From Candidatus Mcinerneyibacteriota bacterium (GTDB lineage: Bacteria; Macinerneyibacteriota; Macinerneyibacteria; Macinerneyibacteriales; DSCS01), in assembly GCA_016937175.1 (NCBI GenBank), contig JAFGWL010000004.1:1-7603 (forward strand): DNA of 7,603 nt, read 5' to 3'. The notes below the pieces were generated by a model. That model made no database searches. It had not been told where the DNA came from and saw only the letters and a program-made list of their open reading frames with translations. Positions 1 to 7,603 of this stretch are shown here, one piece after another; within the stretch, counting starts at the first letter, position 1; each line of letters begins with the position of its first letter. Made by a program: the position numbers and the translations under genes.

Positions 1-95
1 ATGACCTTCTGTGAGCGGATGAAATTAAAGGCTGTGGCCAGGAGCAGGACAGTCAAGACGCTCCAGAACAGGATATTCTTCTTTTTATTCTCCAT
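1..95 (-). CDS. N-terminal fragment of a membrane-anchored or exported protein (cut by window edge)
   Basis: Only the first 31 codons are present; the gene runs off the left edge. The ATG at 93-95 overlaps the last 11 nt of the propeller gene and is preceded by a strong ribosome binding site (GGAGG, 5 nt before the ATG) inside that gene's 3' end, so the two are very likely translationally coupled. The visible peptide starts MENKKKN, followed by a hydrophobic stretch of about 16 residues (ILFWSVLTVLLLATAF) and then polar NFIRSQK. That is a positively charged N-terminus plus a single transmembrane helix, i.e. a signal anchor or uncleaved signal peptide; no lipobox or clear AxA site is seen in the visible part. 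The function cannot be named. Its coupling to the lipoprotein suggests a partner acting at the inner membrane or in the periplasm. Confidence 0.7.
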   Translation of the reverse strand, partial: MENKKKNILFWSVLTVLLLATAFNFIRSQKV

Positions 96-1137
96 CGTCT
101 CCTCCTTCAGGCTCCAGGCCCGCATCGATATCATAAATGTAGAGTTTGGCCCTCCCCGCTTCATCGGGCCGGGTGAGGTACATGACATTTTCATAGTCGA
201 GACATGTCCGGGAGATTCCCAGGATCGTAACCGGATCAAGAGGCGGAAGGCTTGTGAAGGTATGGATCTCATGTCCATCTCTGTCCAGGATCCGGTATTC
301 GTCGGATTTGGACAGGTCGAAGATGTTCTTCATACTCGTGAGAAGCATGAACTTCCCGCTGCGGTCGAAATTGACATCAAAGATATCCCTGTACTTTGTC
401 CTGATCTTTCTGAGTAACTTCCCCTGAAGAGAGTAGACATAGATAAAGGGCTCGAGCATCTTCAAGCGGTCATCGAATGCTCCCAGCACGTAGATCTCAT
501 TTTTTGAGACAGCGTAGGTGGGATTGGCGATGAGAGAAGAGTGTCTTCTCTTGTGAAACCGGTATGCGATCTGCATCTTCTCATCAAGGCGGAAAAGGGT
601 ATGCATCCCTTCGGGCCCGGAACAGGAGAGAAGATAAAGAGCACTGTCCACACGGAAAAGCGTGTCCATATAGGTCTGCTCAGCCAGGCCGGGTGCGGCC
701 TGATCCACAAAAACGACACCGCCTTTTTCAACTCGGTAAGAATTGATAAAATCCCGGACCCGGTCATAGATGATGAAGGAATCCGGCCCTGTAAAATCAA
801 AACCTCCCACAGAGATGTATTCGCCGGGAGCTTTCCCCGCCTGCCCGGCCTGTCCGAGATAAGATCCCTCTCTATCCCAGGCAATGACCTGGTGTTCCCC
901 TCTATAATACCTGAGTCCTAAAATCAAATTTTCGTTGATTTTAAAATCACTGAAATATCCTTTATCAGGAACCTTTTGCAAAAGGATTATTTCTTTCTGA
1001 ACATAGATATCTTCAAGAGATCCTACTCTTCGGATCAAGGCAATCTCATTTCTTGTTAAGATGTCAGAGGGAACAGAACCTCTACAAGAGATCAGAAGGA
1101 AAAATATCCCCACAGTCAGTAATAATCTCGTTTTCAC
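85..1137 (-). CDS. 6-bladed beta-propeller lipoprotein
   Basis: The 350-residue protein begins with a lipoprotein signal peptide: MKTR, a hydrophobic core and the lipobox L-I-S-C with the lipidated Cys at residue 18, so it should sit on a membrane facing the periplasm or surface. The rest is beta-rich with repeated short strand-turn units. Residues 95-107 carry a variant (GQAGQAGKAPGEY) of the G-x-x-G-x-G-P-G-E-Y motif that I associate with the 6-bladed beta-propeller (TolB-like) lipoprotein family common in Bacteroidetes; here Ala103 replaces a usual Gly. No catalytic residues are recognisable and the ligand is unknown. The start is GTG at 1135-1137, with GGGAG 5 nt upstream; that site lies in one arm of an inverted repeat (see 1141-1180). 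It follows the last peptide gene by 109 nt with no convincing promoter of its own, so co-transcription with the peptide is likely. It ends overlapping the next gene. Confidence 0.8.
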   Translation of the reverse strand: MKTRLLLTVGIFFLLISCRGSVPSDILTRNEIALIRRVGSLEDIYVQKEIILLQKVPDKGYFSDFKINENLILGLRYYRGEHQVIAWDREGSYLGQAGQAGKAPGEYISVGGFDFTGPDSFIIYDRVRDFINSYRVEKGGVVFVDQAAPGLAEQTYMDTLFRVDSALYLLSCSGPEGMHTLFRLDEKMQIAYRFHKRRHSSLIANPTYAVSKNEIYVLGAFDDRLKMLEPFIYVYSLQGKLLRKIRTKYRDIFDVNFDRSGKFMLLTSMKNIFDLSKSDEYRILDRDGHEIHTFTSLPPLDPVTILGISRTCLDYENVMYLTRPDEAGRAKLYIYDIDAGLEPEGGDDGE

Positions 1138-1246: not shown

Positions 1247-1450
1247 TTACCTGCGTGTAGGCAAGGTAATGGTCGTTCCTCCAGACACAATACAACTCGT
1301 ACCTCCGGGGAAACAATTGATTTGACCGTTAGCAGTCGATTTAGTCCCTTTTTGGAGTGGAAGCGGGGCGGCCACTGCTTTTTGACTCGTCATTAGAATC
1401 GTCCCGGCGATCATCAGCCCTACAAACAATACTGCGCAGATCTTTTTCAT
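1247..1450 (-). CDS. Small secreted peptide, array copy 1 (C-x6-C, signal peptide)
   Basis: 67 residues. The first ~28 form a classical Sec signal peptide: MKKI, hydrophobic core to about residue 20, likely cleavage after AVA. The mature part is about 39 residues and matches the other two copies: a Pro-rich start (PLPLQ), K-G-T, T-A-N-G, then the C-F-P-G-G-T-S-C pair of cysteines and a polar tail ending TRR. It is the most divergent copy: it lacks the Asn of K-N-G-T, has Ala for Glu in T-E-N-G and a longer Gly/Thr-rich tail. Start choice is firm: ATG with GGAGG 3 nt upstream, behind its own promoter at 1496-1523. The two cysteines could form a disulfide in the periplasm or outside the cell. 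No known family is recognised with confidence; the nearest analogy is the NVEALA-type peptides of Bacteroidetes, also found beside propeller lipoproteins. It probably shares a transcript with the propeller gene. Confidence 0.75.
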   Translation of the reverse strand: MKKICAVLFVGLMIAGTILMTSQKAVAAPLPLQKGTKSTANGQINCFPGGTSCIVSGGTTITLPTRR

Positions 1451-1463
1451 TTTCCTCCTTTTG

Positions 1464-1482
1464 AAAACAACTTCGTTTTTTT
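1464..1482 (-). promoter_or_regulatory. A/T hairpin in the 5' leader of peptide copy 1
   Basis: On the minus strand AAAAAAAC-GAA-GTTGTTTT forms an 8-nt stem with one mismatch and a 3-nt loop, lying between the putative transcription start and the ribosome binding site. The equivalent hairpin before copy 3 (2162-2180) is perfect. A role in mRNA stability or translation is inferred only. Confidence 0.35.
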
Positions 1483-1495
1483 ACAGTTATGATTG

Positions 1496-1523
1496 AGAAT
1501 AACAGAAGGGAAAAAGATGTCAA
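1496..1523 (-). promoter_or_regulatory. Sigma-70-type promoter for peptide copy 1 (and probably the propeller gene)
   Basis: Minus strand: a perfect -35 box TTGACA (1518-1523), a 16-nt spacer and TATTCT (1496-1501) as -10, preceded by TGT, giving an extended -10 (TGnTATTCT). Transcription would start about 40 nt before the ATG. The same boxes appear before copy 3, which raises confidence. Confidence 0.6.
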
Positions 1524-1557
1524 ATCAAATCTTTGAAAGAAATGCCTGTAACACCCG

Positions 1558-1596
1558 GATGATCCCGTGAGGAGCCTGCTCCCGGCGCGGGCCCGG
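1558..1596 (-). pseudogene. Relic of the 3' end of the cofE-like gene
   Basis: In the minus strand this stretch encodes G-P-R-R-E-Q-A-P-H-G-I-I-R, against G-Q-R-L-E-Q-T-P-I-G-I-I-R at the C-terminus of the intact cofE-like protein (residues 202-214). The relic has no start, a 1-nt deletion relative to the parent and no stop at the parental position. It sits at the same distance upstream of peptide copy 1 as the real cofE tail does upstream of copy 3, so it was carried along by a tandem duplication. Confidence 0.65.
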
Positions 1597-1622
1597 TATC
1601 AGACTAATGATGTCATGGCCGC

Positions 1623-1675
1623 AAAACCCGGCCAGATAATATCAGAATCACTGTTTCCGTTTTATCCGGGCCGGG
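1623..1675 (-). terminator. Terminator-like hairpin after peptide copy 2
   Basis: Minus strand: arm CCCGGCC (1669-1675) pairs with GGCCGGG (1627-1633); after a small internal mismatch GATAA (1662-1666) pairs with TTATC (1635-1639), leaving a loop of about 22 nt, and TTTT follows (1623-1626). It begins 14 nt after the stop of copy 2 and precedes the promoter of copy 1. The T-run is short and the loop long, so efficiency is uncertain. Confidence 0.5.
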
Positions 1676-1688
1676 CCTTAGGCAAAGC

Positions 1689-1883
1689 TCATCGTTGAGA
1701 TGAGGGAGGAGGCATCGTCACGACACATTGTGTCCCGCCTGGTGAACAGGGCAAAGCGCCGTTTTCGGTGGTCAATGTCCCGTTTTTGGCGGGTGGCTTC
1801 TTAATCGCTTCAGCCCTTTGGGCCAGGAAGAAGCCAGCAGCGATCATCACAACAAGAAACAAGACAACAGCGATCTTTTTCAT
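1689..1883 (-). CDS. Small secreted peptide, array copy 2 (C-x6-C, signal peptide)
   Basis: 64 residues. MKKI plus a hydrophobic core ending in the signal-peptidase-like site A-E-A (residues 24-26), giving a mature peptide of about 38 residues: I-K-K-P-P-A-K-N-G-T, then T-E-N-G, C-S-P-G-G-T-Q-C and a Pro/Ser-rich tail (MPPPSSQR). It is closest to copy 3, sharing the A-E-A-I-K start, K-N-G-T, T-E-N-G and the G-G-x-Q-C motif. The ATG has a good ribosome binding site (AAGGAG, 4 nt upstream). It lies 64 nt after the stop of copy 3 and has no promoter as clear as the one before copies 1 and 3, so it is probably read from the copy 3 promoter; a terminator-like hairpin follows. The mature part is basic at its start and small enough to be released. 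Function unknown. Confidence 0.75.
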   Translation of the reverse strand: MKKIAVVLFLVVMIAAGFFLAQRAEAIKKPPAKNGTLTTENGALPCSPGGTQCVVTMPPPSSQR

Positions 1884-1947
1884 ACTTCTCCTTAAAAAAG
1901 CATCTTTTTGACATTACCGGTGATATGGACTCTCTTCGAAGGCACTT

Positions 1948-2148
1948 TTACGCCCTCGTCGGAGACTGGGGAGGCGCCGACCAATAGCATTGACTTCCCC
2001 CGAGTACACAAGACGAGCTCCCGTTCTCTGTTCTTACCGTTCCGTTCTTACTGGGAGGGACTTTGATCGCCTCAGCTTCCTGAGTGAGGGCGATAAAGGC
2101 CCCGATGGCCATGAGCAAAAGAACCATGGCGGCGATGATCTTCTTCAT
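1948..2148 (-). CDS. Small secreted peptide, array copy 3 (C-x6-C, signal peptide)
   Basis: 66 residues, first peptide gene of the array in reading direction. MKKI, a hydrophobic core and A-E-A (residues 25-27) form a Sec signal peptide; the mature part of about 39 residues reads I-K-V-P-P-S-K-N-G-T, T-E-N-G-S-S-S, C-V-L-G-G-S-Q-C, then WSAPPQSPTRA-like polar tail. The two cysteines with six residues between them and a central Gly-Gly are kept in all three copies. Start is firm: ATG with GGAGG 3 nt upstream, behind a promoter at 2194-2222. It lies about 100 nt downstream of the cofE-like gene. No modification, export or immunity gene is visible next to it, so calling it a RiPP or bacteriocin would be unsupported; a structural or signalling peptide linked to the propeller lipoprotein is equally possible. 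Confidence 0.75.
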   Translation of the reverse strand: MKKIIAAMVLLLMAIGAFIALTQEAEAIKVPPSKNGTVRTENGSSSCVLGGSQCYWSAPPQSPTRA

Positions 2149-2193: not shown

Positions 2194-2222
2194 AGAATAC
2201 CAGAAGGGGGAAAAGGTGTCAA
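2194..2222 (-). promoter_or_regulatory. Sigma-70-type promoter for peptide copies 3 and 2
   Basis: Minus strand: TTGACA (2217-2222), 17-nt spacer, TATTCT (2194-2199). Optimal spacing and a perfect -35 box, and the arrangement is kept in the duplicate before copy 1. This makes the peptide genes a transcription unit separable from the lipid A operon. Confidence 0.65.
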
Positions 2223-2905: not shown

Positions 2906-3805
2906 TTATTTTCGTTGTGTCCGCCAGCGGTTGGCCAGCCAGTTCCATTGGGCCGGATTCTCTTTCACGGCCTCTTCCAATCTATCAACCAATCCCTGTA
3001 AATGGAAGCGGATATCGTCATCCAGGTCCTCATGTTGGCGCGTAAGGAGGAAAGGCTCTCCGATATGCCCCACAGAGGTCCCGTCTTCCAGCCGCCGGAC
3101 GGTGACGAAACTGACGGGGCAGCCGGTCTTCAGGGCAAAAATGACAGGCCCGTGCGGAGTAGAGCATCGCCGCCCCATAAAGGTCGTGGTCACCCCGGCG
3201 ATCCCCCCATCCTGGTCGTTGAGGATCGCCACGCCGTACCCCTCCCGTAGGAGACGCAGAGTCTCCGGCACCGCGCGCCTGTCTCTGTAGATGATTTTGA
3301 CACCACTCTTTTCCCTCATTCGGTTGACCAGGCGGTCGGTGAGTGGGTTGTTCTGTCTCCGGGCGATCACTGCCAGGGGATAGCCTTTATAGGCCACCGC
3401 CTGTCCCATGAGTTCCCAGTTCCCCAGATGGCCCAGAACAAAGATGACCCCGGGATACTCGTTGTATATCCTTTTGAGCACCTCTTCGTTTTCGATGCTG
3501 ATGACTTTGAGGACATCTTCTTTTCCCATGGTCATAAGATGGATCATTTCAATATAGGTGAGGATATTCTGAATGAAGACTTCCCGGACAAAAGCTTTGA
3601 GAGGCTTTCCTTCTTTGGGAAGGTCCAGGTGAGCCTTTTTGATATTGTCGACAGCCAACCTTTTATACCCCATAAGGGCGAAAAGGGGAAGAAGGGCTGC
3701 AGCTAGCTTACGGTTACAACGCCACGGGAAAAGAGAAACAAAAAATACCACGGCTTTGACAAAAAGATATTCGATCCCGTATTGAAGGCTTTTGACAATC
3801 ATCAT
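2906..3805 (-). CDS. lpxL: LpxL/HtrB-family lipid A (Kdo-dependent) secondary acyltransferase
   Basis: 299 residues, close to the usual ~300 for the family. Enzymes of this family transfer an acyl chain from acyl-ACP to the hydroxyl of a lipid A primary acyl chain at the inner face of the inner membrane. Seen here: hydrophobic N-terminal anchor (about residues 10-27); the catalytic H-x4-E in G-H-L-G-N-W-E (His126, Glu131); N-D-Q-D-G-G (196-201) followed by F-M-G-R-R and T-P-H-G-P; and a Trp-rich C-terminus (WNWLANRW), all typical. The first ATG (3803-3805) overlaps the waaA stop by 4 nt (ATGA); a second ATG follows at once and no clear ribosome binding site is seen, so translation probably depends on coupling to waaA. 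Its place just after waaA fits an enzyme that acts on Kdo-bearing lipid A. Whether it is the LpxL or LpxM type, and its chain length, cannot be read here. Confidence 0.88.
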   Translation of the reverse strand: MMIVKSLQYGIEYLFVKAVVFFVSLFPWRCNRKLAAALLPLFALMGYKRLAVDNIKKAHLDLPKEGKPLKAFVREVFIQNILTYIEMIHLMTMGKEDVLKVISIENEEVLKRIYNEYPGVIFVLGHLGNWELMGQAVAYKGYPLAVIARRQNNPLTDRLVNRMREKSGVKIIYRDRRAVPETLRLLREGYGVAILNDQDGGIAGVTTTFMGRRCSTPHGPVIFALKTGCPVSFVTVRRLEDGTSVGHIGEPFLLTRQHEDLDDDIRFHLQGLVDRLEEAVKENPAQWNWLANRWRTQRK

Positions 3806-5061
3806 GAGGAAAGGGCCTTTTTAATCGCTTCCACGTAACGTCCTGCCGCTCCGCTGTTGGCCCGGACACACGCTCCGGCCCGAGCCGCTACAGCTTCTGC
3901 TTCTCCGGGGTTTCCCAGGAGACGCTTCACAACGGGAGCAACCTCATCTGCAGAAGCTGTTATGAGAGCACTTTCATCCGTAAAATAGTCGTAGATCTCC
4001 TGAAAGTTATGCATATAGGGGCCGACGATGACGCACTTTTCCCAGAGAGCAGGCTCGATGATATTATGCCCGCCCTGGGGGATCCAACTTCCCCCCACCA
4101 GGACCAGGTCGGCAAACTTATAGACCATATCCAGCTCTCCCATGGTATCCCAGAGGGCCACGTCCGCCTTCCAGGAGAGCCGGGATGTCCGACGCTCCAC
4201 GCTGAACCCCTTTTCCGTGAGGAGGATCTCCACTTCCTGTATCCGTTCAAGATGGCGGGGAGCCAGGATAAAAACCGTCTTTCCCTTGAGCTCCTGAAAA
4301 CGGGAAAAGAGGATCTCCTCTTCCCCCTTATGGGTGGAACCGATCACCGTGAGCGGCTTGTCGGGGCGCCCTTCGAAAAGCGCTGCCAGGCGTGATTCCC
4401 GGCGGGGGTCACTCTTTTTACCGTAGACGTCATATTTCGTATTCCCGCACACTTCGATAAGCTCTTCCGGCGCTCCGCAATCCATAAACCTCTTCTTCTC
4501 CACATCAGATTGCACGAGCAAAGCCCGGTAGAGGGCGAAGATATGTCTCCATAAGCTTCTGAAAAGGCGGTAGCTTTTGTAATCTTTGGGAGGGATCCGG
4601 CCGTTGACAAGAAGCACGGGCACCTTTTTCTGCCAGGCCCTGCGTATAAGCTGGGGCCAGATCTCCGTCTCCACGATGATCAGAGCCCGGGGCCTCATCT
4701 TACTGAAGAGCGAAGCCACAAAGGGGAAGAAGTCCACGGGAAGGTAAAAAAGGGTGACATCCCGGCCGAAATGCTCCCTCACCATCTTGTATCCTGTATA
4801 AGTCCCCACAGAGACAGCCACAGGCTCTTTCCCCGTAAACTCCCGGATCACCGGGACGGCTGCTTTGACCTCTCCTGCCGAGACGGTATGAAACCAGACA
4901 TATCCTTTTGCGGGGAACAGGCGCGACGGGACGAATCCCACCCGCTGAAAAAGGCCGTGACGGTCTTTGCCTGTCACAAGAGCCCGGATCAGATAATAGG
5001 GAAAAAGAAGGAGCAAAACCGGGATAAAAATCAGATTATAGAGGAAAAAGATGAGGGCCAT
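3802..5061 (-). CDS. waaA: 3-deoxy-D-manno-octulosonic acid (Kdo) transferase
   Basis: 419 residues, normal for WaaA/KdtA (GT30), which moves Kdo from CMP-Kdo to the lipid A precursor on the inner membrane. Order of features: N-terminal membrane anchor (about 3-27); S-A-G-E-V-K-A-A (61-68) with the presumed catalytic base Glu64; E-T-E-I-W-P (131-136); G-N-T-K-Y-D (206-211); G-S-T-H-K-G-E-E-E (241-249); A-P-R-H (267-270); D-T-M-G-E-L (305-310); and G-G-S-W-I-P-Q-G-G-H-N-I-I-E-P (323-337) of the nucleotide-sugar site. ATG start with AGGGG upstream inside the end of the oxidoreductase gene, 3 nt after its stop. How many Kdo residues it adds cannot be told from the sequence. Confidence 0.95.
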   Translation of the reverse strand: MALIFFLYNLIFIPVLLLLFPYYLIRALVTGKDRHGLFQRVGFVPSRLFPAKGYVWFHTVSAGEVKAAVPVIREFTGKEPVAVSVGTYTGYKMVREHFGRDVTLFYLPVDFFPFVASLFSKMRPRALIIVETEIWPQLIRRAWQKKVPVLLVNGRIPPKDYKSYRLFRSLWRHIFALYRALLVQSDVEKKRFMDCGAPEELIEVCGNTKYDVYGKKSDPRRESRLAALFEGRPDKPLTVIGSTHKGEEEILFSRFQELKGKTVFILAPRHLERIQEVEILLTEKGFSVERRTSRLSWKADVALWDTMGELDMVYKFADLVLVGGSWIPQGGHNIIEPALWEKCVIVGPYMHNFQEIYDYFTDESALITASADEVAPVVKRLLGNPGEAEAVAARAGACVRANSGAAGRYVEAIKKALSS

Positions 5062-5064
5062 GCC

Positions 5065-6039
5065 CTACCCCTTTATATTCTTTTCGGTGATCTCCAGAGC
5101 CTTGAGAGCGATCTTCAAAGAACGGAGATTGTCCATGGCACTGTAGATGGGCTTTTCATGGTCCTGGATACAGTTGACAAAATGCTCGATCTCCAGGCGC
5201 AGGGGATTGTCCCTGTTCACCGTAAGGCGTTCTACATAGGAATCCTGGACCTGCTTCATCTTCCCCCCCACGACATTGTCACTGGTCGTGGCTTTTCTGT
5301 GGATGGAGACATCTTCCGAAGCATAATCGAGGAAAATATCATAATCGGGCATGGTTATGGAGAGGGTCCTTATCTTTGTCTGGCTCACACGGCTGGCAGA
5401 AATGGTTGCAAAGGTACCGTTTTCAAAATAGAGTTGGACATTGGCTATGTCTTCAAATCTGCTGTAGACTTGTTTTCCCACAGCTGCGATCCCGGCGACT
5501 CCGCTCCGGACCAGGCCGAGGATAATATCGATATCATGGATCATCAGGTCCAGGATGACCCCGGAAGTACGCTCTCTTTCCCCGGCAGGCCCAAACCTTT
5601 TGGCCTCGAGAAAGATCGGCGTCTCGCCCTTCACCACATCCATCAGCTCCAGGACAGCGGCGTTGAACCGCTCCACATGGCCCACATGAAAGACGAGGTT
5701 TCTCTCTTCTGCTATATCGATAAGCTCCACGGCATCTTCATAGATCCTGGTCATGGGCTTTTCCAGAAGAATATGCTTCCCGGTCTCCAGGCATCCCTTG
5801 GCCACCTTGTAGTGCTCTGATGTGGGGACGGCGATATTTACCGCATCCACGTGGGGGAGAAGGTCCTGGTAATTGTAAAAGGCTTTTGTCCCGTAGAGCT
5901 CTGCGATCTCATTGGCCCGGCTTTTACGGATATCACAGACTCCGACAAAATCGATATATTTCTTCAATTGGTCGTAGATCCGGGCATGGTAGTTTCCCAT
6001 ATGTCCCACACCGATGACACCCACACGCAATTTACTCAT
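5065..6039 (-). CDS. Gfo/Idh/MocA-family NAD-dependent sugar-nucleotide oxidoreductase, GnnA candidate
   Basis: 324 residues. N-terminal Rossmann fold with G-V-G-H-M-G (10-15) for NAD(P); E-K-P (93-95), the family signature whose Lys is catalytic; G-H-V-E-R-F-N (120-126); and D-L-M-I-H-D-I-D (164-171) containing the Asp/His pair near the sugar. The G-H-V-E-R-F-N and H-D-I-D patterns resemble enzymes that oxidise the 3'' position of UDP-GlcNAc derivatives (WlbA, GnnA). In Acidithiobacillus ferrooxidans, GnnA with the aminotransferase GnnB lies between lpxA and lpxB and produces UDP-GlcNAc3N; here the gene lies between lpxB and waaA and no GnnB is in view. That context makes a GnnA-type role the best guess. 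The ATG overlaps the end of lpxB by 8 nt, with AAAGG upstream. Confidence 0.85.
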   Translation of the reverse strand: MSKLRVGVIGVGHMGNYHARIYDQLKKYIDFVGVCDIRKSRANEIAELYGTKAFYNYQDLLPHVDAVNIAVPTSEHYKVAKGCLETGKHILLEKPMTRIYEDAVELIDIAEERNLVFHVGHVERFNAAVLELMDVVKGETPIFLEAKRFGPAGERERTSGVILDLMIHDIDIILGLVRSGVAGIAAVGKQVYSRFEDIANVQLYFENGTFATISASRVSQTKIRTLSITMPDYDIFLDYASEDVSIHRKATTSDNVVGGKMKQVQDSYVERLTVNRDNPLRLEIEHFVNCIQDHEKPIYSAMDNLRSLKIALKALEITEKNIKG

Positions 6040-7153
6040 GACAGCACCTTTCTTTTATCAGTCGGGCCGCCCTCCGGACAGCACCGGCCGGCTCCAGGGA
6101 TGCTTTCACCTGCGAAAGCTCTTTTTTGATCCTCTGATATTCTGTTTTATCTTCCAGGATCTTTTTTACCATAGCGGTGAGTTTGGGTTGTGTCAAATCC
6201 CTCTGGAGCAGTTCCGGGACTATCCCTTTCCCGGCGATGATATTGGGCATTCCCACATAGGAGACTTTCACAAGAAGCCGGGCGACGATCTCCGTGAGAA
6301 GTGAGACTTTGTAGGTGATGACCATTGGCGTCCCGGCCACGGCTGCTTCCAGAGTCGCTGTCCCTGACGAAAGGATCAGGAGGTCGGCTGCTTGCATCAC
6401 CACCGTCCCCTCCTTTTTCACAGTCTTGATGAAGGAAGGCGTCTCAGGGGCAAACCGCTCATAAAAACTGCTCGAAGCAAAGGGCATGATAAAATCAAAT
6501 TCCCCCTTCAGGGCTTCGGCGGTCTTAAGAAAAAGAGGAAAGAGAGTCCTGAACTCCTGGGGGCGTGATCCGGGGAGAAGCCCGATGAGAGGTTTGTCAT
6601 AGGAAGAGGAAAGGCCGAGAAGCCGTCTCGCTTCACCCTTGTCTAGAAGAGGCATCTCGTCCAGGATCGGGTGGCCGATATAGTCCACAGACAGGCTAGT
6701 CCCCTTGTAGAAGGCATCCTCTTGTCGGAAGACGGCCAGGATATGGTCCAGTTTGTTTTCCAAAGAGGAGGCTTTTTTCAGCCCCCAGAGCCAATACTGG
6801 GGAGCAAAATAATAGAAGGAAGTGATCCCTTCCTTCTTCACTGTCCCGGCCAGATTCAGGTTAAACCCTTGATTGTCGATAAAGACGACACAATCGGGCT
6901 TCCACTCCCGGACAAAGCGACGGGCCTTTTTTAATGAAGAGAGGTTCTCCCTCAGGTGAGGAAGCCCTTCAAGGATCCCCACACTGCTCTTTTCGGTAAG
7001 GTCATCGATGAGAGTGACGCCGGCCGCCTTCATCCTCTCCCCCCCTATCCCGCACAGTTGGATCCCCGGGATCTCCTCGTACAGGGCTCTGGCGAGAAAC
7101 GCTCCGTGGAGGTCTCCCGAAATCTCACCGGCAGACAGAAATATCTTACCCAT
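6032..7153 (-). CDS. lpxB: Lipid-A-disaccharide synthase
   Basis: 373 residues, normal length for LpxB (GT19), which joins UDP-2,3-diacylglucosamine and lipid X into the beta-1,6 disaccharide on the cytoplasmic face of the inner membrane. Recognisable motifs: S-A-G-E-I-S-G-D-L-H-G-A (7-18, usually GEASGD); F-I-D-N-Q-G-F-N (91-98); Y-F-A-P-Q-Y-W-L-W-G (115-124); G-H-P-I-L-D-E (160-166); L-L-P-G-S-R-x-x-E (192-200); S-S-G-T-A-T-L-E-A-A (262-271); and the C-terminal M-P-N-I-I-A-G-K-G-I-V-P-E-L-L-Q (302-317). The ATG overlaps the lpxA stop by 8 nt and follows a purine-rich AAAGAGAA, so expression is coupled to lpxA. Confidence 0.95.
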   Translation of the reverse strand: MGKIFLSAGEISGDLHGAFLARALYEEIPGIQLCGIGGERMKAAGVTLIDDLTEKSSVGILEGLPHLRENLSSLKKARRFVREWKPDCVVFIDNQGFNLNLAGTVKKEGITSFYYFAPQYWLWGLKKASSLENKLDHILAVFRQEDAFYKGTSLSVDYIGHPILDEMPLLDKGEARRLLGLSSSYDKPLIGLLPGSRPQEFRTLFPLFLKTAEALKGEFDFIMPFASSSFYERFAPETPSFIKTVKKEGTVVMQAADLLILSSGTATLEAAVAGTPMVITYKVSLLTEIVARLLVKVSYVGMPNIIAGKGIVPELLQRDLTQPKLTAMVKKILEDKTEYQRIKKELSQVKASLEPAGAVRRAARLIKERCCHE

Positions 7154-7603
7154 TCTCTTTCAGCAGCAAGCCCCTTTCCGATTTGTTGATAAAAGCGATC
7201 ACATGAGCCAATTCCGGACATTTTTCGGGACCCAGCCCTTCAAGGGTCTTGAGCATCTCTTCCCGGCTGCTGCTTTTGCGGATGACTGAAAGGGCTTCTT
7301 TCAGGGTACTCCTGGTCTCCCGGTCAAAACCGGCACGACGCAAGCCTACGATATTCAACCCGAATATCCTTGGAGGATACCCGCTGACAAGGGTATAGGG
7401 AATCACATCCTGGGTAATACGGGAAGCCCCGCCCAGCATGGCAAGGGTACCGATCTTGCAAAACTGGTGGACCAGACAGGAAGCCGAGATAAATGCCCGG
7501 TCTTCCACAGTGACATACCCCCCCAGGGCAGTAAAGTTTACCATGACTACATGGTCCCCCACCTGACAATCATGGCCGATATGAGCATGGCCCACTAGGA
7601 AAT
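7146..7603 (-). CDS. lpxA: UDP-N-acetylglucosamine acyltransferase, C-terminal part (5' end outside window)
   Basis: The frame is open to the right edge, with Phe-Leu codons before the first in-frame GTG (7593-7595), so that GTG is internal and the gene is partial. About 150 residues remain of a ~260-residue enzyme that puts the first 3-hydroxyacyl chain on UDP-GlcNAc (or UDP-GlcNAc3N). Visible: end of the left-handed beta-helix with A-H-I-G-H-D-C, containing the catalytic His (E. coli His125); V-H-Q-F-C-K-I-G (E. coli His160 region); G-G-A-S-R-I-T-Q-D-V with the Gly equivalent to the E. coli Gly173 acyl-chain ruler; F-G-L-N-I-V-G-L-R-R-A-G-F; and the helical C-terminal domain. The position of E. 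coli His144 (L-A-G-H-V) appears as Tyr (L-G-G-Y-V) here. First gene seen of the lipid A operon. Confidence 0.93.
   Translation of the reverse strand, partial: FLVGHAHIGHDCQVGDHVVMVNFTALGGYVTVEDRAFISASCLVHQFCKIGTLAMLGGASRITQDVIPYTLVSGYPPRIFGLNIVGLRRAGFDRETRSTLKEALSVIRKSSSREEMLKTLEGLGPEKCPELAHVIAFINKSERGLLLKENG

Follow-up and report, generated by a model that had tools for sequence, protein, structure and literature searches.

Three small open reading frames follow one another on the window (the whole stretch of DNA analysed here, which is an entire contig of 7603 bases from a genome of 1.88 Mb and 98.7% completeness), and they raise the questions of whether they are genuine genes, whether they belong to a known family, and what their products do beside the lipoprotein gene toward which they point. 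The original prediction had placed three small secreted C-x6-C precursors of 64–67 aa at 1247–2148 and had taken them for an unrecognised family whose members could, among other roles, be ligands of the neighbouring propeller lipoprotein. The peptide family was seen in that reading, while the kinship of the locus with NVEALA-like modules and its third member, a thioredoxin-like gene at 95–3, were missed.

Peptide genes and origin of the array

The three precursors were confirmed by their open reading frames and by alignment. Their genes are transcribed from the minus strand in the order 2148–1948 (gene 3), 1883–1689 (gene 2) and 1450–1247 (gene 1), each has an RBS-like sequence, and they point toward the propeller and thioredoxin-like genes on the same strand. 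Genes 3, 2 and 1 encode precursors of 66, 64 and 67 aa with the mature parts IKVPPSKNGTVRTENGSSSCVLGGSQCYWSAPPQSPTRA, IKKPPAKNGTLTTENGALPCSPGGTQCVVTMPPPSSQR and APLPLQKGTKSTANGQINCFPGGTSCIVSGGTTITLPTRR, respectively; the peptide sequence STANGQINCFPGGTSCIVSGGTTITLPTR is given as an example. Judged by reading the sequences, all three precursors have Sec-type signal peptides, which open with MKKI and run through a hydrophobic core to a cleavage-type site, A-(V/E)-A; a lipobox cysteine is absent from all of them. The leader/mature junctions read QKAVAA, QRAEAI and QEAEAI, with no GG preceding the mature part. The mature parts (38–40 residues, charge +3 to +4, pI 9.4–10.1) have in common P-P/P-L, K-(N)-G-T, T-x-N-G and C-x2-G-G-x2-C, and the three-peptide alignment contains 20 invariant columns, including P31, K34, G35, T36, T39, N41, G42, C46, G49, G50 and C53. 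Aligned alone, the mature parts score z 7.6 to 17.5 above shuffles, so the likeness of the three peptides extends beyond their signal peptides, as had been claimed.

Promoter-like sequences were found for gene 3 (TTGACA-N17-TATTCT, 2194–2222, minus strand) and gene 1 (TTGACA-N16-TATTCT, 1496–1523, minus strand); no promoter of its own was detected for gene 2. At the aligned site, the sole congener compared, G001 (record DSCS01, SpSt-1200), has TTGACA-N16-TAATCT. The upstream regions of genes 1 and 3 (1403–1515 and 2101–2213) are duplicates with 80% identity to each other and only 59–62% to the G001 region, and the mature coding parts of the same two genes share only 42% DNA identity. Between the copies, upstream of gene 1, lies a fossil (1555–1594, minus strand; 33/40 nt identical, blastn E 7e-8) of the 3' end of a cofE-like gene of the F420 ligase family, whose source stands at 2248–2895 on the minus strand (PF01996, E 4.5e-12) and occupies the same position in G001 (L004). 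The array therefore arose by tandem duplication of a unit composed of the cofE end, the promoter and the peptide gene. Its pattern reflects either cassette-like divergence, i.e., fast change of the mature parts after a recent duplication, or promoters homogenised between older copies. A possible attenuator hairpin in the stretch separating gene 1 from the propeller gene was discarded as unsupported, since z is about -1.8 in each of the two species and the pairings differ.

Family searches and conservation in the congener

None of the three peptides matched Pfam or NCBIfam over the cut-off, and the family thus stands as unrecognised at the sequence level. The best match was to DUF6520 (PF20130; 16.5 bits, another 13.8, vs. 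a cut-off of 25.4; E 0.011, residues 1–55), an identity that was weighed for its E-value and dropped, since DUF6520 loci are MauE loci. The three peptides gave no match to PF14055 (NVEALA) even at E 10, G000 gave none at E 0.1, and the NVEALA motif is absent from all three leader/mature junctions. Sequence homologues were found in G001 alone among the genome contigs searched and in none of the viral contigs searched, while 98 phylum-spread genomes gave weak partial matches only, none better than E 0.002 and the majority located within long frames. The exact C-x2-GG-x2-C also occurs in one Bacteroidota peptide (CDTGGTGC, L166), for which homology is not claimed, as the pairwise match comprises only 6/15 residues.

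G001 carries a single such peptide gene (L004:6001–6204), which is orthologous to gene 1 (1247–1450; 78% identical) and stands in the same place within the order lpxA-lpxB-Gfo/Idh-kdtA-lpxL-cofE-peptide-propeller-thioredoxin-like. The two orthologues differ mostly at third codon positions (9/11/19), with purifying constraint over the entire gene (P=1e-4) that is strongest in statistical terms in the mature core (residues 28–58), where 3.5 non-synonymous differences on 69 sites stand against 13.5 synonymous ones on 24 (P=4e-7); for the signal peptide, constraint against the G001 orthologue was not significant. These are genuine peptide genes whose mature core is constrained, which excludes the idea, raised beforehand as fatal to the prediction, that the mature parts evolve freely. 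A second such idea, that no homologues exist outside this locus, is excluded within the genus by the orthologue; the exclusion is confined to the genus because no sequence homologue was found beyond it, where the counterparts are module-level analogues. Identity between the window and G001 is 78% for the gene 1 peptide, which exceeds the 64% of the propeller and is close to the 77% of lpxL.

Two side observations concern the same comparison. The synonymous sites of gene 1 are unusually conserved relative to L004:6001–6204 (pS 0.39 vs. 0.62–0.78 in four neighbouring genes), which may reflect high expression or recent exchange. The G001 record is labelled Bacillota, yet both genomes carry lpxA, lpxB, kdtA and lpxL (2906–7603 in the window; L004), and among the genomes searched only three species are placed in the order of G001; given these lipid A and Kdo genes and the sparse order, the label looks doubtful.

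Propeller lipoprotein and thioredoxin-like protein

Gene 1 is followed, after 109 bp, by a lipoprotein gene (85–1137, minus strand; lipobox Cys18), the product of which is predicted to be a 6-bladed beta-propeller. The protein's own Pfam scores are E 0.005 for PF15869 and E 0.13 for PF17170 (11.8 bits vs. the 22.9 cut-off); its G001 orthologue (64% identical) reaches 24.7 bits vs. 22.9 for PF17170, and an HMM derived for this analysis from propellers of Bacteroidota matches the window protein with E 4e-15. A model built from four sequences (pLDDT 68, pTM 0.69), which superseded a poor single-sequence model (pLDDT 38), matches NHL propellers and PDB entry 4raa, and indicates that the 1137–85 gene encodes a propeller fold. 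The best PDB match is 4raa itself (Z 14.3 over 250 residues, rmsd 4.1 Å), which is also matched by profile over the full length (E 2e-25). This closest solved structure is BF0058 of Bacteroides fragilis, annotated only as 'putative exported protein'. Pfam recognised no signalling domain in the lipoprotein. MauB was not a conspicuous match when the model was compared by fold, a comparison that is no test of its absence.

The third gene (3–95, minus strand) encodes a thioredoxin-like protein with an N-terminal transmembrane part, 84% identical over 31 aa to its G001 orthologue. As it is cut by the contig end, its CxxC is known from that full-length orthologue only (L004:7356–7931, CEQC).

Recurrence of the triad in other genomes

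The combination of a small secreted cysteine peptide, a propeller and a CxxC protein recurs with unrelated peptides. G001 has a second cluster (L004:9211–11240) with a 94 aa Cys peptide, a propeller and a CNAC membrane protein, and a third (L066) with a 67 aa 2-Cys peptide, a propeller and a CHYC protein; the unrelated genome G081 (L127) has the same triad with a 103 aa 4-Cys peptide, a propeller matching PF17170 at 47 bits, and CMSC. The 94 aa peptide (L004:9211–9495), which is secreted and lies between the second and third G001 propellers, gave no match in Pfam.

For the survey of Bacteroidota, to which genome G064 was assigned by its SusC proteins, 39 PF17170 matches in the phylum were taken as the start. 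A first count, with a looser peptide rule and PF17170 matches only, found a peptide at 14/39 propellers vs. 5/104 other genes (P=7e-6). All five peptide-bearing 'controls' proved to be propellers by HMM, and the count was therefore repeated. Of the 53 propeller genes in this second count, 22 have a small secreted Cys peptide no more than 500 bp away, compared with 2 of 90 other genes (P=1.7e-9); for transmembrane CxxC proteins, with 1.5 kb as the limit, the figures are 12 of 53 and 0 of 90 (P=3e-6). These P values are indicative, because a few of the counted peptides are doubtful (L164:9115, L184:2853, L196:4988) and some genomes contribute several loci. Propellers are thereby linked less strongly to thioredoxin-like proteins than to peptides. 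At 31/53 Bacteroidota propellers no peptide was found alongside, and the other G000 propellers (PF17170, E ≤ 0.01) have no adjacent peptide. Pfam and NCBIfam searches with 31 peptides of comparable loci yielded nothing above the cut-off.

NVEALA peptides were read in context for all 11 matches over the cut-off in two genomes: nine are followed directly by an HMM-matched propeller and ten by a lipoprotein of 347–399 aa, the gaps between peptide and propeller range from -7 to 166 bp, and the clusters contain CTSC or CSAC proteins. In one further Bacteroidota locus (L189; 3512–5229, 1294–3483 and 8451–10001), two tandem Cys peptides with double-glycine leaders precede a propeller, together with genes for a C39-ABC exporter and a VKOR-thioredoxin protein. 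Their leaders imply that it is the mature peptide, and not the export route, that goes with the propeller; taken with the recurrence of the triad, propellers of this kind accompany Cys peptides irrespective of peptide sequence and export route. Judged from sequence, the peptides of other phyla are not demonstrably homologous to those of the window.

Proposed function and alternative explanations

The peptides are read here as one part of a three-part envelope module, in which the mature disulfide loop would be the dedicated partner of the propeller (ligand or subunit) and the thioredoxin-like protein would handle the disulfide, a reading that we regard as roughly evenly poised between right and wrong. 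The three genes would give rise to secreted peptides of about 4 kDa, each with one disulfide loop presumably formed at C-x2-G-G-x2-C, and the peptides would be exported by Sec. The 6-bladed lipoprotein would hold the peptide, probably on its propeller face, and the membrane-anchored CxxC protein could make, break or check the disulfide, while three copies may provide the single propeller with alternative ligands. Of the earlier idea of a propeller ligand, the association is now backed by comparative genomics across distant genomes, and it is from this association that we infer binding and role. A precedent for joining two of the parts is NHLRC2/SOQ1, where a thioredoxin-like domain and a 6-bladed propeller form one unit with a CCINC motif facing the propeller cleft; there the two parts lie side by side, as in the window, but are fused in one chain and have no known peptide partner (PMC6107167).

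The closest likeness is to NVEALA loci, in which a propeller lipoprotein of the PF17170 type is immediately preceded by a small secreted Cys peptide, CxxC thioredoxin-like genes are often present as in the window cluster, and several pairs occur per genome. The window peptides differ in having no NVEALA motif, no PF14055 match (27-bit cut-off) and a short AxA-type Sec leader, and the locus differs in its one C-x6-C loop, its tandem array before a single propeller and its phylum. The locus is outside the NVEALA family, yet it works like an NVEALA-propeller module; the bacteroidetocin, DUF6520/MauE and methylamine-dehydrogenase readings fit less well.

Among the alternatives, the peptides could be antimicrobial (bacteriocin-like), with the propeller as producer protection or docking site and the thioredoxin-like protein as a dedicated thiol oxidoreductase, which we consider unlikely. 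The small size, two Cys and positive charge (+3 to +4) of the peptides would suit this role, as would their diversified tandem copies and the GG-leader peptides and C39 exporter alongside a propeller in L189. Bacteroidetocins, too, are Cys peptides of about 40 aa whose loci include a dedicated thiol oxidoreductase, but they have a double-glycine leader, a C39 ABC exporter and four Cys, and a propeller is mentioned 0 times in the paper (PMC6671954). The window peptides take the Sec route, and a C39-peptidase ABC exporter is absent among the genes of the window and L004. Gene 1, which is under strong purifying selection and more conserved than the propeller, lacks an arms-race pattern, and this constraint together with a single propeller for three peptides speaks against a simple toxin-immunity pair.

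A role of the peptides as pheromones, extracellular signals for which the propeller lipoprotein would be the sensor, seems to us improbable. Propellers are common ligand-binding folds, and small, secreted, promoter-driven products in diversified copies would be in keeping with signalling; however, a regulator or membrane signal transducer is absent from the window, and the lipoprotein has no recognised signalling domain.

It is very unlikely that the peptides are small structural or catalytic subunits of a propeller enzyme, as in methylamine dehydrogenase, where MauA is a small disulfide subunit, MauB the propeller subunit and MauD a thioredoxin-like protein. The types of parts are the same (propeller, small Cys protein, thioredoxin-like), and DUF6520 loci, which resemble the window in having a small secreted Cys peptide with a redox partner gene nearby, have MauE alongside in 23/26 cases (L215–L240). 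Those loci, though, have a propeller in 0/26 cases, and the MauE HMM has no match in the window or L004; each window peptide has two Cys only, and Trp is absent from peptides 1 and 2, which makes a TTQ/CTQ cofactor impossible there. Chance or unconstrained frames with signal-peptide-like starts, which are easily found when frames are short and the mechanical list for the window is long, can be practically dismissed, being refuted by the mature-part likeness, the orthologue, the codon-position pattern and dN<dS in the mature core.

Significance

Within the proposed module of peptide, propeller and thioredoxin-like protein, the peptides most likely serve the lipoprotein, as its surface or periplasmic ligand or subunit, and do not act as toxins; adhesion, uptake and sensing are candidates for the final use. 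That the triad recurs both in Bacteroidota and elsewhere among bacteria suggests a peptide system of wide distribution. We tentatively suggest, with somewhat less than even confidence, that it may represent an undescribed class of envelope system composed of diversifying disulfide peptides (Sec- or double-glycine-exported), 6-bladed propeller lipoproteins and a dedicated membrane thioredoxin, which would extend from Bacteroidota to the phylum of the present genome and to one further phylum or more, and of which the tandem array here would change the mature cassette and keep the promoter. In the literature searched, which leaves out most subscription journals and preprints, we found no paper describing the triad and none using the names NVEALA, DUF6520 or DUF5128.

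Little has been explained so far about three families, the PF17170 propeller lipoproteins and the NVEALA and DUF6520 peptides. With unrelated Cys peptides found repeatedly next to one type of propeller and of thioredoxin-like protein, these orphan families can be assigned a common role that is open to testing, for which we propose peptide-propeller binding with dedicated disulfide handling, and the present locus extends the module to a poorly sampled lineage.
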